From contig DAIDGV010000025.1 of the NCBI GenBank assembly GCA_027452205.1, forward strand, positions 1-64,000: 64,000 nucleotides of DNA. The letters run 5' to 3'. Each line of letters begins with the position of its first letter. Within the stretch, counting starts at the first letter, position 1. A program made the translations under genes and the position numbers. This document shows, one piece after another, positions 6,920-48,740 of this stretch. The notes beneath the pieces are model-generated. The model was given only the letters and a program-made list of their open reading frames with translations. It was not told where the DNA came from and searched no databases. The stretch is from a candidate division FCPU426 bacterium (GTDB taxonomy: Bacteria; Oederibacteriota; Muellerivitia; Muellerivitales; Muellerivitaceae).

Positions 6920-7372
6920 TTAATGGGTACCTGTATGGCCAAACCCGCCCGAACCCCGGGTGGTCTCATCCAAACTCGGAACCGGCTCGATCCGGGCTTG
7001 GACCACCGGTGTGATCACCAGTTGGGCGATACGCTCTCCCCTTTTCAGGGTGAAGGCCTCTTGGCCCAAGTTAATGAGCAGCACCTTCACCTCGCCCCGG
7101 TAGTCGGAATCAATGGTACCCGGCGTGTTGGTCACGGTCAGGCCATGCTTCATCGCCAGGCCGCTGCGGGGACGCACTGTTCCCTCGAAACCCAAGGGGA
7201 TGGCCATCTTGAGGCCGGTCGGCACGATCGTGCGCTCGCCCGGTCGCAGGACAAAAGGTTCGGTCAAGGCGGCCCGCAGGTCCATTCCCGCGGCGCCTTC
7301 GGTGGCGTAAGAAGGCAAGCCTAGGTCTTCATGACCCGGCAGCACCTCGATCTTCAGGACCGGTCCGTTCAT
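6920..7372 (-). CDS. dut: Deoxyuridine 5'-triphosphate nucleotidohydrolase
   Basis: This enzyme hydrolyses dUTP to dUMP and pyrophosphate, keeping uracil out of DNA and supplying dUMP. At 150 residues it has the normal trimeric dUTPase length, and all five motifs are visible: [44 protein letters not shown] and the C-terminal glycine-rich arm [10 protein letters not shown]. Its ATG overlaps the stop of the preceding gene by 4 bases (ATGA), indicating translational coupling with the BshC-like gene. Confidence 0.97.
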
Positions 7373-8952
7373 TTCACGCCCTCGGTCAAAGCCCGGTCGA
7401 TCTTTCCTTTCATGTCCTTATAAACATCCTCGCCATAGCAGAAGAAGGGATATTCCCGGCAAGCAAAAACGCTTTTGGCCTCTTCCAAACCCTGGGCTTC
7501 CAGGATGCCCCGGGTGATCGCTTGAAAAACATTGCTGTAAGCAATGTTCAATTCCTCATTCACCTGCTTGATATGTTTGCCCGCGCGGGGTTTCTTGTCC
7601 GGGTCCTTGAGATCTTCCAGGGCCTTCCTCTTTTGATCGACCAGCTCCCGCAGCTTCGGGTCGGCGAAGCACTTTTCCATCGGGGCCTGGATATCCTTGG
7701 GCAGGGTCGACTTCCATTCGGCGGAACGGGTAAAAAGATATTCGGGATTCTGTTCCAGGGCCCTTTTCCAGGCCTCCAGTTTCTTTTCGCCGCCCCCAAG
7801 GGTCTTCAATTCCTCGTTTTGCGCCGGATCGATGAAATAGGTCGCCGAGATCACCCCATAAGCCGGGGGTTCGATGACGGTCGTTTTATGGAAGAACCGG
7901 TCCACTACCTCCTCATAGATTCCGCCGCCGATGCCGTGGATGAAGAAATCACAAAGATACATCCGAAGGAAGAGGGTCTGGGGGATGGCCTTGGGCCATA
8001 TCCGCAGGCTGGAGGCCTTCAATTCGTTCTCCAGGTCGTCAAAATGGAAGGTAAATTGGTTGTCCATGCCCTTCAGCCGGATGGTCAGCATTTTCCCGTC
8101 GGTCTTGGCCCAAATGGTGTCACGATATTGGTTCTTCACCACACCCCAGAAGGGCATCTCGAAATACCAGTCATCGAACTTGAGGTTGGACACCGGTTCG
8201 ATATCGTGGGTGATCCCCTTTTCCTTGCGGTACTCGTTCAGGGTGTCGTTATAGCTGTGGACCAGGTCCGCGGCATGGATGAACCAATAAGCCACAAAGT
8301 GCATGAATGGGTCGGAAGCCCAAATGGCGCTTCCTTCCAGGATGGCCCTTTTGGTACCGCTCAAACGGTCCAGCACATCCACCGTATGGGCATGGAATTG
8401 GTTCCAAGTGCGGTTGGCCTTGAGCCCACTGACGAGTTTATCGGCAAAAAATGCCACGGCGTCCTTGACCGCCGAAGGGCCAAAAACCCGGGTATCTTCC
8501 AGCACTTTTTCCAGGGCCGGTTTGTCCGGGGCCGCCAAAAAAGCGTAAGGCAGCATCTTTTCCTTGGTCTTCAATTCCTTGGAGCTGAAAAAATCCACCT
8601 CTTGCTTACGCGCGTTGGTCCGGCTGCTGGCCTCGGGGATGTAATGTTTGAACTCCGGCGACAAGGCCGTATCGGTGATGAGGTGATAGACGGCCGCGTC
8701 GGTCTGCTGGGCCAGTTCACTGGCCGCGAGACATTTGGCCCAAAGCCCCGGATAAAAGAAGACGGGTTGGTGCCCCGTCAGGACGATGGGACGTTCGGTT
8801 GGCATTTTTAGTTCGGCCCGCACCTTGGAGGGATACTGACCCCAAAGCACCGCTTTGAAATGGTCCCGGCGGTTGCGGATGACCGCCAGCTTCCATTCGC
8901 GTGGATCCGGCTCGAAATAGAATTCGCCGTGACCCTGGGGAACTTGATTCAT
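7369..8952 (-). CDS. BshC-like protein of unknown function
   Basis: The 527-residue product has no signal peptide or membrane segment and is probably cytoplasmic. Near the N-terminus, [20 protein letters not shown] resembles the VVTGQQ..L..GP..T..K segment of BshC (the putative cysteine-adding enzyme of bacillithiol synthesis), and a charged helical region near the C-terminus (about 430-480) could match the BshC coiled coil. BshA and BshB are not in this window, so bacillithiol synthesis cannot be claimed. The ATG at 8952 has AAGGAG seven bases upstream. It is coupled to dut by a 4-base overlap and follows a GT2 gene by 25 bases. Confidence 0.6.
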
Positions 8953-9769: not shown

Positions 9770-11107
9770 TTATTGCGGCAACTTGGGGATATCGCCGCTT
9801 TGGACCGGGGTGGTCGTAGGCGCGTCGCCGACGGCGACCAACCCCGAGGGTGAAGCTGAAGTGGTGCCGGAAGCAGGGGCTTGGTCCGCGGGCGCGACCA
9901 CTGCGGGCTGAGAGGCATTAGCGTTCGCCGGGCCGGTGCTGACCGAGGAGACAACCGTGGGTTCGTTGGTGGCCAAGGAAACGGTCGGTTCGACTTTAGG
10001 GACTTGGACCGCGGCGCTGGGATTGGAATCCCAGGGATTGGGCGGAGCGCCGCCATTATCCTGCGGCATCGGCAAGGGCCCCGAAGGGGTGGCGGTCTGC
10101 ATGGCGGCTTCTTCATCCTTCAATTTCTTCTCAGCTTGCAACTGGTCGATCTGTTTCTTCGAGAGCAGCGGTTTACGGATCTTCAGGATGTGGTCCTGCG
10201 CCTCTTTGTCTTTCGGGTTGATCTCGGCGTACTTGTTCCAGTGATAAAGGGCTAGGCCGAATTGCTCGTCCCGCTCGAAGATCAGGGCCAATTGGCGGTG
10301 GGCCTTGGCCTGCTCGTTATCCACCGAAAGGATGATCAAATAGAGCCGCTTGGCATGGTCCCAATCGCGGATATCCTCGTAATGTTCGGCCAGACGATAC
10401 TGGGCCTCGATGCTCTTGGGGGCAATGTCGGAGGCGTACTTGAACTGCTCCACCGCTTTCTTTTCGTCACCCAGGGCCAAGAAGGACTCGCCCATCTTGC
10501 CCCGGGCGGTGGCGTCAAGGGGATCCACGTCCAAAGCTTGACGGTAATAAGCGATGGCTTCTTCATGGCGGGCTTGGGCTTGGAAGGCGTCCCCTAATTT
10601 TTCATAGACCGGGGCCGTGTCCTTGTAACTGCGAACGGCCAATTTCAATTCATCCACGGCGTCGTTGTAGCGCTTTTCCCCCAGATAGGCCGTGCCCAAG
10701 TTGAAGTGGGCCGATCCTGATTCCGGATCGATGCTCAAGGCTCGTTTGGCGTAATAGATGGTCTTGTCATAAATGCGTTTTTGAAGGAAAAGGTAAGCCT
10801 CATTGGTGAGTGCCGGGACATAGTTGGGTTGGATCTCCAACGCTTTGTCGAACTGCTCCATCGCTTGAGGAACATCATTGTCACGGGCGTAAAGTTCGCC
10901 CAAGTTGTTGCGCGCTTGAACGTTGTAAGGGTTCCGTTCGACCGCTTCTTTATAGTACTGCATGGCGGTCGAAGGCTTGCCTTCCTTGACGTAAAGATTG
11001 CCCTTATCGAGGTAGAATTGGGCATCCGGGGAGTTATCGGCGAAAAGACCGACCGGGACCATCAGGGAGCCTAAAACCAGAAGAAAAAGACGGGTACGGA
11101 AGGACAT
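9770..11107 (-). CDS. Secreted TPR-repeat protein
   Basis: The product (445 residues) has a Sec signal peptide (residues 1 to about 23, cleavage near LFA/DN), about eight tetratricopeptide repeats over residues 28-325, a charged helical stretch (about 326-350) and a long Pro/Ala/Ser/Thr-rich disordered tail to the end. TPR proteins of this type act as periplasmic scaffolds; no catalytic motif is present. The ATG at 11107 has AAGGAG five bases upstream. A strong promoter lies 42-70 bases before the start. The partner is unknown. Confidence 0.85.
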   Translation of the reverse strand: MSFRTRLFLLVLGSLMVPVGLFADNSPDAQFYLDKGNLYVKEGKPSTAMQYYKEAVERNPYNVQARNNLGELYARDNDVPQAMEQFDKALEIQPNYVPALTNEAYLFLQKRIYDKTIYYAKRALSIDPESGSAHFNLGTAYLGEKRYNDAVDELKLAVRSYKDTAPVYEKLGDAFQAQARHEEAIAYYRQALDVDPLDATARGKMGESFLALGDEKKAVEQFKYASDIAPKSIEAQYRLAEHYEDIRDWDHAKRLYLIILSVDNEQAKAHRQLALIFERDEQFGLALYHWNKYAEINPKDKEAQDHILKIRKPLLSKKQIDQLQAEKKLKDEEAAMQTATPSGPLPMPQDNGGAPPNPWDSNPSAAVQVPKVEPTVSLATNEPTVVSSVSTGPANANASQPAVVAPADQAPASGTTSASPSGLVAVGDAPTTTPVQSGDIPKLPQ

Positions 11108-11148
11108 CCGGGCTCCTTGGGGATCACAAAGACTTCAACAGACCGACG

Positions 11149-11177
11149 ATTTTACGGGAGGGTACCGGGGCCGTCAA
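11149..11177 (-). promoter_or_regulatory. Sigma70-type promoter of the TPR gene with shared upstream 16-mer
   Basis: Minus-strand -35 TTGACG (11172-11177), a 17-base spacer and -10 TAAAAT (11149-11154) give a leader of about 35 bases. The -35 box is the end of CCTCTTGGTCGTTGAC (11173-11188), which recurs exactly at the promoter upstream of the UgpC-type gene. Confidence 0.65.
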
Positions 11178-11230
11178 CGACCAAGAGGCCTAGCGGTCAG
11201 AAACAGCCCCCAAAAACCTTTATAGACAGA

Positions 11231-12622
11231 CTATTTCACTAAAGACTGGGCCGCTTTTAGGAGAGCCTGCATTTGTTGGGTCGAAGGCGCTTCCGCGTAA
11301 AGCCGCAACAAGGGTTCCGTGCCTGAGGGACGGACCATCAGCCATCCGTTCTCCAGCTTCAATTTAACGCCGTCCAAGGTCTGAAGACCAACCACCTTTT
11401 GTCCCGCAATGGAAGCGGGCGGCGACTTTTTGAGCCGGTTCAGTACCGCGGCCTGTTTTGCGAAGGGCATGTTCTCAACGTCGATGCGGCCCGAATAGTA
11501 GGGACCGAATTCTTTTTGGAGGAAGGCCACCGCTTCGGTGGGAGTTTTTTTCATGGTCACCAACGCCTCAAGCAACAAGAGCCCGGATAAGAGACCGTCC
11601 CGCTCGGGCAAATGGCCTTGAATGGCGATGCCGCCGCTTTCCTCAATCCCCAAGAGGACATTCTCTTTGAGCATGACCCCGCCGATATATTTGAAACCGA
11701 TAGGGGTCTCAAAAATAGGGATACCCCATTTTTTCGCCATGCGATCGATCATCAAGGTTCCGGACACGGTCTTGACCACCGCGCCCCGCATGCCCCGATT
11801 CACCCAAAGGTGATAGAGCAGGATTCCGTGGAGTTTATGGACATCCACATAATGGCCTTTCTCGTCCACCATACCGATGCGATCCCCGTCCCCGTCGGTG
11901 GCGAACCCCACGTCCGCTTTCCAATCTTTCATCATTTTGAAGAGAGGCTTTAGGTTGGGTCCGATGGGCTCCGGTTGGATGCCGCCGAAGAAAATGTCCC
12001 GGTTCGCCGCCACGGTCCCCGCTTGGGTCTTGGAGCCGGAAATGAGCTCCTCAAAGTGCTTCCCGCCCACGCCGTGCATCGAGTCGATGACTACTTTGAA
12101 CCCCGCTTGGCGGATAGCCTTCAGGTTCACCTTGGCCGAAATGGCCTTCAGGTAAAAGGGCAGCCAATCCTGGGTAGTGACGGGCCCGGCCAGGGACAGG
12201 TCCGGTTCGAAGTTCGGAATATTCTTTTCGACGACCTGGGTGAAAGAGGACGGTGCGGAAACGCCCGGCGGCAGTTTGATCTTGAAACCGTTATAGGCGC
12301 CCGAGTTATGGCTGGCGGTGATCATGACGCCCGCGTCAGCCTTGTATTGTTTCACAGCCAGGGACAGGGCCGGGGTCGGCAGGATACAGGAAGACAGAAC
12401 TACCCGGTGACCAAAGGACGCCAGCACCTTGGCCGCCTCGGCGGCATACTGGTCGGAATAAAAGCGGGTGTCGTAACCAACGAAAACAAGGGCGGACTTC
12501 TTCTTTTTCTTAAGGGTCACACCCAATCCATAAGCGACCCGGCGCACATTGGGAAAATTGAAGGTCGTGCTGATCTTAGCGCGCCAGCCATCAGTGCCGA
12601 AGTGAAGTTGATCCAATGTCAT
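11231..12622 (-). CDS. Phosphomannomutase/phosphoglucomutase family phosphohexomutase
   Basis: This alpha-D-phosphohexomutase interconverts hexose 6- and 1-phosphates, feeding sugar-nucleotide synthesis. The 463-residue product shows the N-terminal FGTDGWRA motif, the phosphoserine loop TASHNSGAYNGFK, the metal loop DGDGDR, the sugar-binding EESGG and the phosphate-binding RPSGTEPLLRLY, so all four domains are present. It lies 9 bases after a Rieske gene and near a mannose-1-phosphate guanylyltransferase-like gene, so mannose 1-phosphate is a likely product. Sugar specificity (Man, Glc or GlcN) cannot be set from sequence alone. Confidence 0.92.
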   Translation of the reverse strand: MTLDQLHFGTDGWRAKISTTFNFPNVRRVAYGLGVTLKKKKKSALVFVGYDTRFYSDQYAAEAAKVLASFGHRVVLSSCILPTPALSLAVKQYKADAGVMITASHNSGAYNGFKIKLPPGVSAPSSFTQVVEKNIPNFEPDLSLAGPVTTQDWLPFYLKAISAKVNLKAIRQAGFKVVIDSMHGVGGKHFEELISGSKTQAGTVAANRDIFFGGIQPEPIGPNLKPLFKMMKDWKADVGFATDGDGDRIGMVDEKGHYVDVHKLHGILLYHLWVNRGMRGAVVKTVSGTLMIDRMAKKWGIPIFETPIGFKYIGGVMLKENVLLGIEESGGIAIQGHLPERDGLLSGLLLLEALVTMKKTPTEAVAFLQKEFGPYYSGRIDVENMPFAKQAAVLNRLKKSPPASIAGQKVVGLQTLDGVKLKLENGWLMVRPSGTEPLLRLYAEAPSTQQMQALLKAAQSLVK

Positions 12623-46201: not shown

Positions 46202-47308
46202 TTAGTTGGTCAGGCACTTTTCCGTTTCCTTGTCGAAAATATGGGCCTTCTGCATATTGAAGACCAGTTCGATATCTTGGTTGATCTCGATCTGATCGTA
46301 GCTCGGCACCCGGGCGATGAAGGGGCTCTTGCCCGTGGTCAGATAGACATAGGCTTCCGCGCCGAGGGGCTCGATGATCTCCACCGTCGCGTTGATGGTG
46401 TTGTCCGGCGAGGCGTTGGAGGCGTCCATCTTGTCGTGGATATCCTCCGGACGGATCCCGAGGATGACTTCCCGGCCCACATGGGCTTCCACTTGGGCGG
46501 CGAAGCTATCCGGTAATTTGATCTCGAAATTGTCCTCGTTGAAATAAACGCCCGTGCGCTTCTTCACCAAAGAACCGTCCATGAAATTCATGGCGGGCGT
46601 TCCGATGAAACCGGCCACGAACTTGTTCACCGGCTTCTCGTAAAGGCTGATCGGGTCGGCGATCTGTTGCACCAAGCCGTTGCGCATGACGACGATACGG
46701 TCGCCCATGGTCATGGCTTCCAACTGATCATGAGTGACGTAGATCATGGTGGCTTGCAAACGCTTGTGGAGCTTGGAGATCTCCGCGCGCATTTGAACGC
46801 GCATCTTGGCGTCCAGGTTGGACAGAGGTTCATCGAAGAGGAACACTTTCGGCTTGCGCACGATAGCGCGGCCCAAGGCCACGCGCTGACGCTGACCGCC
46901 CGAGAGGGCCTTCGGTAAACGATGGAGCAATTCTTGGATACCCAGGATGCTGGCCGCTTCCTGCACCCGTTGCCTGATCTCTTCTTTGGGGTACTTGCGC
47001 AGTTTCAGACCGAAAGCCATGTTGTCGAACACGCTCATATGGGGATACAAGGCGTAGTTCTGGAACACCATCGCGATATCGCGATCCTTGGGGGGCACGT
47101 CATTGACCAGGGTATTGTCGATCCACATCTCACCGCTGGTCAGCTCTTCTAAGCCCGCCACCATCCGCAAGGTCGTGGTCTTGCCGCAGCCCGAAGGGCC
47201 GACCAGTACCACGAATTCCTTGTCCTGGATCTCGATGTTGACGTTATTGACCGCGACAACATTCGTTCCGTAAACCTTATTGACGTTGCGTAAAACGACC
47301 TTCGCCAT
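46202..47308 (-). CDS. UgpC/MalK-type sugar ABC transporter ATPase
   Basis: The product (368 residues) has Walker A GPSGCGKTTTLRMVAG, signature LSGGQRQRVALGRAI, Walker B VFLFDEPLSNLDAKMRV and a C-terminal OB-fold regulatory domain (about 240-368, with GIRPEDIHDK), all as in MsmK/UgpC/MalK. These ATPases drive carbohydrate uptake and may serve several transporters. No permease or binding protein is nearby, so it is an orphan or shared ATPase. The ATG at 47308 has GGAGG-type bases upstream. A long leader of about 150 bases is predicted. Confidence 0.93.
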   Translation of the reverse strand: MAKVVLRNVNKVYGTNVVAVNNVNIEIQDKEFVVLVGPSGCGKTTTLRMVAGLEELTSGEMWIDNTLVNDVPPKDRDIAMVFQNYALYPHMSVFDNMAFGLKLRKYPKEEIRQRVQEAASILGIQELLHRLPKALSGGQRQRVALGRAIVRKPKVFLFDEPLSNLDAKMRVQMRAEISKLHKRLQATMIYVTHDQLEAMTMGDRIVVMRNGLVQQIADPISLYEKPVNKFVAGFIGTPAMNFMDGSLVKKRTGVYFNEDNFEIKLPDSFAAQVEAHVGREVILGIRPEDIHDKMDASNASPDNTINATVEIIEPLGAEAYVYLTTGKSPFIARVPSYDQIEINQDIELVFNMQKAHIFDKETEKCLTN

Positions 47309-47463
47309 GGAATCCTCCGCGAAAGGAACCGGATCGCCCCGAGATCTTCGCCGATAACGTTGAAAGCATCGGCCTTCGTCAAGACACTAGCGGATATACG
47401 ATCGAGTACCAAAATAGCTTTCGGCCCTTATTTCCGCCGAAAAGCCCATAAAAACAACGGGTT

Positions 47464-47492
47464 ATTTAAACATCGCCCCCCCACCCTGTCAA
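47464..47492 (-). promoter_or_regulatory. Sigma70-type promoter upstream of the UgpC-type gene with shared 16-mer
   Basis: Minus-strand -35 TTGACA (47487-47492), 17-base spacer and -10 TTAAAT (47464-47469). CCTCTTGGTCGTTGAC (47488-47503) is identical to the sequence at the TPR gene promoter (11173-11188). Confidence 0.6.
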
Positions 47493-47556
47493 CGACCAAG
47501 AGGGCCCAAAGCCCTCAAAAAGGTCCTCAAGACCTTACTCCGACCGCGATTCAGTT

Positions 47557-47570
47557 TATAATCCCACCCC
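47557..47570 (+). promoter_or_regulatory. -10 box placing a leaderless start for the ligase-family gene
   Basis: TATAAT at 47557-47562 ends eight bases before the ATG at 47571, and no ribosome site is present. Transcription would start at or within a few bases of the ATG. The -35 region is weak. Confidence 0.45.
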
Positions 47571-48740
47571 ATGAGCCAACCTTCCTCGATCCGTCGATAC
47601 GATTATTACTCCCTGCTGGCATTCGCCCTTACCGCCGTCGCATCCATCGCCCTGCAGAACTTCGTCTGGATCGCTGTCGCCTTGTTTCTTTTTTCGGCTT
47701 TAAAGGACCATCAAAAGATCGATTGGCCCTCCAACCTTTTTGTGACCGCAACGCTGGTCTTTCTCGCTTCTTATATCCTTGGCTGTATCGTCGGCATCAA
47801 CCCTGCTCAAAGTTTCCAGTCGGTCCATAAATACCTGACCTTCTTACTGATCCTTCCCGTCGGCGCCATGGCCCTCTCGACCCTGGATATCCGCCGGATC
47901 TTTTACTATTTCATCGGGGGCGCGGTTGTTTGTTCGATCTTCGGCATCGGCAAATATTTCATATACCACCAAGACCGCATCGACTCTTTCTCGGGCGACA
48001 AGATGGTCTTTGGCGGCATGCTGATGGTGACTGTCCTTTTCATTACCTGCCTTTTGATCTCCACTCCTAAGAATTACTACTTGTGGGCCAGCCTGGTCAT
48101 CGTTACCTGGGCGCTCATCCTGACCCAGACCCGCGGGGCTTGGGTGGGTGTTTTCACCGGATTCATCCTTCTCACCTGGCGTTTCAACAAAAAATGGCTA
48201 TTGTTGGGTTTGGCCCTGGCCCTGGCCGGCTTCTTCCTTTCGCCCCAGTCCTTTAAGGACCGGGTGGAAAGCATCGTGACCGTTCATTTTGTTTATAACG
48301 ACCAGAACCAAGTGGTCAACGCTACCCAAACCCGGCTTCTCATTTGGAAATCCGGTTTCCAGATCATCAAGGAACATCCGATGGGCATCGGCCAGGGCAA
48401 CCTGGAGGACATCTACCCCAAATACCGCATCGACGCCATCGGCAACGACCCTAACGTGCCCCACCTACATGACAACTTCTTGCAGATCCTTCTCCAAAAT
48501 GGCTGGATCGGCCTGGCGGTCTATTTATTCTGGATCTTTTCTTTTTACTGGGAAGCCCTGCGGTTCAAGTCGTCCGACGAGGAATTGAACCTTTGGAACT
48601 GGATGTTCCTTTGTATGTTCTCCGCGGTGCTGGTCTGGGGTTTGACCGAGTACACCTTCAGCCATCAATTCATGAACATTCAGTTCTTTTTTATGGGGCT
48701 CGCGGTACTGCTTTGGAAGAACAACTCGGTCAAAAGCTAG
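47571..48740 (+). CDS. O-antigen ligase/polymerase family membrane protein
   Basis: The product (389 residues) has ten to twelve membrane segments and a large periplasmic loop near the C-terminus ending NVPHLHDNFLQILLQNGWIG, the H-x-N motif of the Wzy_C/WaaL family. Members either join O-antigen to lipid A-core or polymerise repeat units; the sequence does not decide. TQTRGAWVGVF holds a conserved Arg. It is transcribed apart from the main locus and overlaps folC by 4 bases at the shared CTAG. No Shine-Dalgarno is seen. Confidence 0.88.
   Translation: MSQPSSIRRYDYYSLLAFALTAVASIALQNFVWIAVALFLFSALKDHQKIDWPSNLFVTATLVFLASYILGCIVGINPAQSFQSVHKYLTFLLILPVGAMALSTLDIRRIFYYFIGGAVVCSIFGIGKYFIYHQDRIDSFSGDKMVFGGMLMVTVLFITCLLISTPKNYYLWASLVIVTWALILTQTRGAWVGVFTGFILLTWRFNKKWLLLGLALALAGFFLSPQSFKDRVESIVTVHFVYNDQNQVVNATQTRLLIWKSGFQIIKEHPMGIGQGNLEDIYPKYRIDAIGNDPNVPHLHDNFLQILLQNGWIGLAVYLFWIFSFYWEALRFKSSDEELNLWNWMFLCMFSAVLVWGLTEYTFSHQFMNIQFFFMGLAVLLWKNNSVKS

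Follow-up and report, generated by a model that had tools for sequence, protein, structure and literature searches.

A 16-mer shared by the predicted sigma-70-type promoters of a TPR-repeat gene and an ABC ATPase gene in a candidate division FCPU426 bacterium

A 16-mer occurs twice, letter for letter, in the window (the whole stretch of 64,000 nucleotides analysed here), each time in the predicted promoter of one of two unrelated genes. These are probably two sigma-70-type promoters, each independent of the other and bordered upstream by a T-rich edge; chance would have made them identical in this genome, building on an older resemblance that was only partial. The eye-catching exact match weakens on comparison with orthologues, which retain the -35/-10 core and a loose edge upstream of it. 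The sequence-only reading had proposed a shared regulator or a sigma-specific site linking the TPR gene and the UgpC-type ATPase gene. Conservation supports the promoters themselves, with conserved bases that extend 7-9 positions upstream of the -35 box; the sigma-specific site is not supported, and the shared regulator has little in its favour.

The two copies and their promoters in the window

The minus strand of the window carries two exact matches of CCTCTTGGTCGTTGAC, copy 1 at 11173-11188 and copy 2 at 47488-47503, and the 2.89-Mb genome (28 contigs) likewise contains two. Both copies end in the TTGAC of a -35 box, copy 1 consisting of 11 upstream bases and this TTGAC, and at each of them a 17-base spacer leads to a -10 box (TAAAAT or TTAAAT). 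The sequence-only reading had described the pair and its promoter elements correctly. Across the window, a search for CCTCTTGGTCGTTGAC with up to three mismatches gave a single additional match, with three mismatches.

The TPR promoter, TTGACG-17-TAAAAT at 11149-11177 (-), precedes the gene of a TPR-repeat protein of 445 aa (9770-11107, -), which adjoins a glycosyltransferase gene. The conserved -10 block of this promoter, CTCCCGTAAAATCGT, lies at 11146-11160 (-). The second promoter, TTGACA-17-TTAAAT at 47464-47492 (-), precedes the gene of a MalK/UgpC-type ABC transporter ATPase of 368 aa with the domains ABC_tran, OB_MalK and TOBE_2 (46202-47308, -), whose nearest named relative, encoded on candidate division FCPU426 contig PLZG01000022.1, is 87% identical. 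A strict promoter scan reported the TPR promoter and did not report the ATPase promoter, in which the second base of the -10 box is T, not A. Terminator-like sites were absent from 10950-11350, while two were present in 47150-47750, none at the 16-mer; there were no Rfam matches at the gathering score within the window. TTGGTCGTTGAC was not found in the literature searched.

How unusual is such a match? An exact 16-mer pair is ordinary as such, since 14 overlapping 16-mers are repeated within the window, forming nine separate pairs; the expected number, from 40 simulations of first-order Markov windows, has a mean of 2.3 per window. Of the nine, the CCTCTTGGTCGTTGAC pair alone has its two copies in intergenic DNA, a situation that arose 0.025 times per window in the simulations. 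In the genome, 45 consensus promoter-like sites were detected against 11 in the reversed control. We read 44 of them, one near a contig end having been dropped by the position filter, and given that control part of the 44 will be chance. No two of the 44 sites match over a longer stretch than the 11 bases that these two share in front of TTGAC; the runner-up is 7, and an 11-base match was reached in 1 of 1000 column shuffles, which counts against two independent promoters. The match exceeds chance for a pair named beforehand, and is modest when one allows for the selection of this pair by its match.

Several features around the two promoters were also observed. By eye, a short inverted repeat GAGGGC-CCAAA-GCCCTC at 47500-47516 overlaps the outer CCTC of copy 2. 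It has no counterpart at copy 1, and the outer bases of the two copies may therefore differ in origin. Divergent from the ABC ATPase gene lies an O-antigen-ligase-like gene at 47571 (+), where a perfect TATAAT ends 8 bases before the ATG (47557-47573), a position that suggests a leaderless transcript. TATAAT was found 6-8 bases before the ATG of a divergent ORF of similar length in 5 of the 7 loci read, the window's genome included; a census of called genes gave no clear general excess of starts with TATAAT just before the ATG. A 527-aa ORF (7369-8952, -) that follows the TPR and glycosyltransferase genes has no Pfam match at E 0.001.

Conservation of the promoters and of their upstream edge

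We compared nine genomes of the order, eight of the family and 45 of the phylum; the lineage is candidate division FCPU426. The TPR promoter lies upstream of its gene in 9/9 genomes of the order, and the ATPase promoter in all seven genomes in which it is readable; G003 (65% complete) has no full orthologue, and the contig of G007 ends before the promoter. At each of the two, the -35 box, the spacing and the -10 box are all conserved, and this conservation upstream of orthologues supports the view that both predicted promoters are real. That orthologous promoters align in nine and seven genomes, respectively, also speaks for their independence. In G004 the ATPase promoter has a degenerate -10 box, GAAAAT, and in G002 both promoters are displaced to about 280-360 bases upstream of the genes.

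In the TPR rows, TTGACG and TAAAATCGT are invariant. The -10 block of this promoter, CYCCCKTAAAATCGT (11146-11160, -), is exact in eight of the nine genomes of the order, and its exact form occurs only at the TPR gene. The -10 blocks of the TPR and ATPase promoters differ, and both facts argue for independent promoters. As a separate observation, CYCCCKTAAAATCGT is better conserved than the 16-mer and extends beyond a normal -10 box.

Upstream of the -35 box, conserved bases extend for 7-9 positions at each promoter, and the columns beyond are not kept. The edge that is kept reads approximately T-Y-T-T-G-N-N-C-G. Counting columns backwards from the first base of the -35 box, we found T at -7 in 8/9, T at -6 in 9/9, G at -5 in 8/9, C at -2 in 8/9 and G at -1 in 6/9 TPR rows; the corresponding counts in the ATPase rows are 7/7, 5/7, 5/7, 6/7 and 7/7. 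Three or four T stand at -9 to -6 in 8 of the 9 TPR rows and 6 of the 7 ATPase rows. The full YTTGNNCG is in register in six of nine TPR rows (broken in G004, G006 and G008) and in four of seven ATPase rows (broken in G002, G004 and G006), and the ATPase site also persists in a second family. Over the 44 consensus sites of the genome, T is commonest at -4 and -3, and not at -9 to -6. The T-rich edge is therefore not a general feature of promoters in this genome, which counts against a reading in which independent promoters carry such an edge.

The last 15 bases of the 16-mer were present in one of the 45 phylum genomes and absent from the other 44. This limitation to one species among the genomes compared favours independent promoters; it would also fit an identity due to pure chance, with bases upstream of the -35 box that have no functional meaning, as would the commonness of repeated 16-mers in the window. 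Pure chance nevertheless appears quite improbable, because positions -9 to -5 and -2 to -1 are kept at each promoter despite the TPR proteins being just 48-57% identical across the family genomes (37% in G008).

The likeness of the two edges was also evaluated beyond G000. When G000 rows were excluded from all groups, 18 of 20000 column permutations reached the score of the TPR/ATPase pair; six groups make 15 pairs, and when the best of these was taken each time the count was 93 of 5000. With G000 included, the two counts were 2 of 5000 (TPR/ATPase pair) and 16 of 2000 (best pair); with G000 left in the efp group alone, they were 12 of 20000 and 59 of 5000. Since it is the columns of fixed profiles that are permuted, and since the six comparison groups were chosen by the analyst, the test is only moderate evidence that the two orthologue profiles are alike even without G000, and this likeness counts against independent promoters. 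However alike the profiles, TPR and ATPase sites, again with G000 left out, agree at 5.5 of 11 bases within a genome and at 5.6 of 11 between genomes. The absence of a better match within genomes speaks against a co-evolving regulator and for promoters that are independent of each other.

Searches for a common motif and a common regulator

Copies of CCTCTTGGTCGTTGAC with one or two mismatches number seven more in the genome, against three in the reversed control, and each of the seven is located within an ORF that is 196 aa or longer. A larger regulon was rejected on this ground. A single looser copy, L190, falls outside long ORFs, and it lacks a correctly spaced -10 box. Additional copies at promoters, as expected of a regulon with a shared operator, were thus not seen in the genome, and the genome scan suggested by the sequence-only reading gave, for the 16-mer, the very outcome that the reading had named as speaking against it.

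The extended -35 site of that reading, specific to a sigma factor, found no support. The motif occurs at 2 of the 44 consensus sites of the genome, CG precedes TTGAC at 5 of the 44, and other conserved promoters have other flanks. It is true that the conserved bases directly adjoin the -35 box at both promoters. It is also true that of the 101 TTGAC-18-TNAAAT sites found across the order, where the control yielded 37, 18 have CG in front of TTGAC, compared with about 6 expected if all dinucleotides were equal; the control for the pattern with CG gave 3. However, 13 of these 18 sites belong to just three genes, those of the TPR protein, the ATPase and a zinc-ribbon TPR protein. A general extended -35 motif was rejected on these counts, and a lineage-wide one, recognised either by the main sigma factor or by an alternative one, is highly improbable, the efp-like, rpsP-like and most pilin-like promoters inspected having other flanks. 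In front of the -35 box, rpsP-like genes have GGCCTATTTCC or GTCTTTTCC, and efp-like genes have TTTGT, ACTGT, CTGGT or TTGGT (the efp-, rpsP- and pilin-like names were assigned by eye from translations). That other conserved promoters have upstream edges of their own, and that the motif is at 2 of 44 sites, agrees with independent promoters.

The efp-, rpsP- and pilin-like promoters (L224, L348, L341 and their relatives) are conserved in several family genomes with distinctive flanks, such as GGCCTATTTCC before TTGACA in the rpsP-like and CCTCTTTTGC after the -10 box in the efp-like promoters. Another promoter, with CGTTGACA, was observed in G000 and G003 (L249, L285). It is followed by a leader that by its motif resembles a cobalamin riboswitch, and promoter and leader are divergent from a protein that by eye resembles a cytochrome bd oxidase subunit.

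A looser search for YTTGNNCGTTGACR across the eight family genomes found 28 sites, compared with 6 in the reversed control, an excess that weighs against independent promoters. Among the 26 sites inspected, nine have a correctly spaced -10 box, and all nine are TPR or ATPase promoters. The two others, L197 and L201, were excluded by the position filter at contig ends. L201 is a second G007 contig carrying the TPR promoter; L197 is missing from the matches of TTGNNNNTTGAC-18-TNAAAT given next and thus carries no correctly placed TNAAAT. In the nine genomes of the order, TTGNNNNTTGAC-18-TNAAAT had 14 matches and its reversed control none. Eight of the matches are TPR promoters (two of them on two G007 contigs), four are ATPase promoters, and two belong to a third gene. 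This third gene encodes the zinc-ribbon TPR protein; it has an orthologue with TTGAC upstream in 9/9 genomes, and TTGNNCG stands before that TTGAC in three of the nine (G002, G006 and G007), all of genus g3, and not in G000. Its presence there is a further point against independent promoters.

These matches speak for a dedicated transcription factor that would bind YTTGNNCG next to the -35 box at both promoters, perhaps at the third in one genus, from a class II-like position and with a very small regulon. The element is present at both promoters in several genera (six of nine and four of seven rows), the profiles are alike without G000, 12 of the 14 matches are TPR and ATPase promoters and 2 the zinc-ribbon TPR gene, and the G006 orthologue of that gene has the element as well. 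We still regard such a factor as rather unlikely: the genome has no additional copy with a correctly spaced -10 box, the two sites show no co-variation within genomes, the zinc-ribbon TPR gene has the element in 3/9 genomes only, all g3 and not G000, and the element is broken in three rows of each promoter, as given above. In a broader form, YTTGNNCG directly upstream of the -35 box would be read in this family by a putative regulator or a special RNA polymerase contact, coupling the sugar-ABC ATPase gene and the TPR gene, and in one genus the zinc-ribbon TPR gene too, in a tiny regulon, which we think unlikely. The shared regulator suggested from the sequence alone thus has little in its favour, with near-copies inside ORFs, L190 lacking a -10 box, the last 15 bases absent from the 44 other phylum genomes and the two sites not tracking each other in a given genome. 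These results give no indication of a broader system of common control.

Proposed origin of the match and comparison with known systems

Returning to independent sigma-70-type promoters as the probable explanation, we suppose that each of the two unrelated genes would have inherited its own promoter from the ancestor of the order. The T-rich edge, whose position beside the -35 box and whose conservation are read directly from the alignments, may act as a contact comparable to the proximal portion of an UP element; it would then raise the basal strength of each promoter. Substitutions at free positions would have happened to make both edges identical in one species. We infer that chance completed a partial resemblance of ancestral origin to give the exact 16-mer, which is probably not the site of a common regulator.

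A modest view of how promoters are built in an uncultured division comes from the conserved ones described here, those of the TPR, ABC ATPase, zinc-ribbon TPR, efp-like, rpsP-like and pilin-like genes. Were the loose element a genuine binding site for a regulator, a sugar-transport ATPase would be linked with a TPR/glycosyltransferase gene cluster in a regulon of very small size.

The consensus of the sigma-70-type housekeeping promoter is TTGACA-17-TATAAT. Both promoters have its hexamers (TTGACA or TTGACG at -35, TAAAAT or TTAAAT at -10) at a 17-base spacing, and both lie upstream of genes and are conserved between species, upstream of orthologues in 9/9 (TPR) and 7/7 readable (ATPase) genomes. 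As far as sequence can tell, they do not appear to differ from this class in any essential respect. A class II activator site adjoins the -35 box, and the edge has the same position; unlike such a site, it has no established repeat architecture, its promoters number two (with a third in one genus), and the regulator is hypothetical. The proximal subsite of the UP element is contacted by the alpha subunit of RNA polymerase. Like that subsite, the edge lies directly upstream of the -35 box and has three or four T at -9 to -6 in most rows (8/9 and 6/7). Two related papers are PMC9655642 and PMC4390567. In contrast to the subsite, the edge contains a conserved G and a CG instead of a pure A/T tract, and the contact is a putative one.
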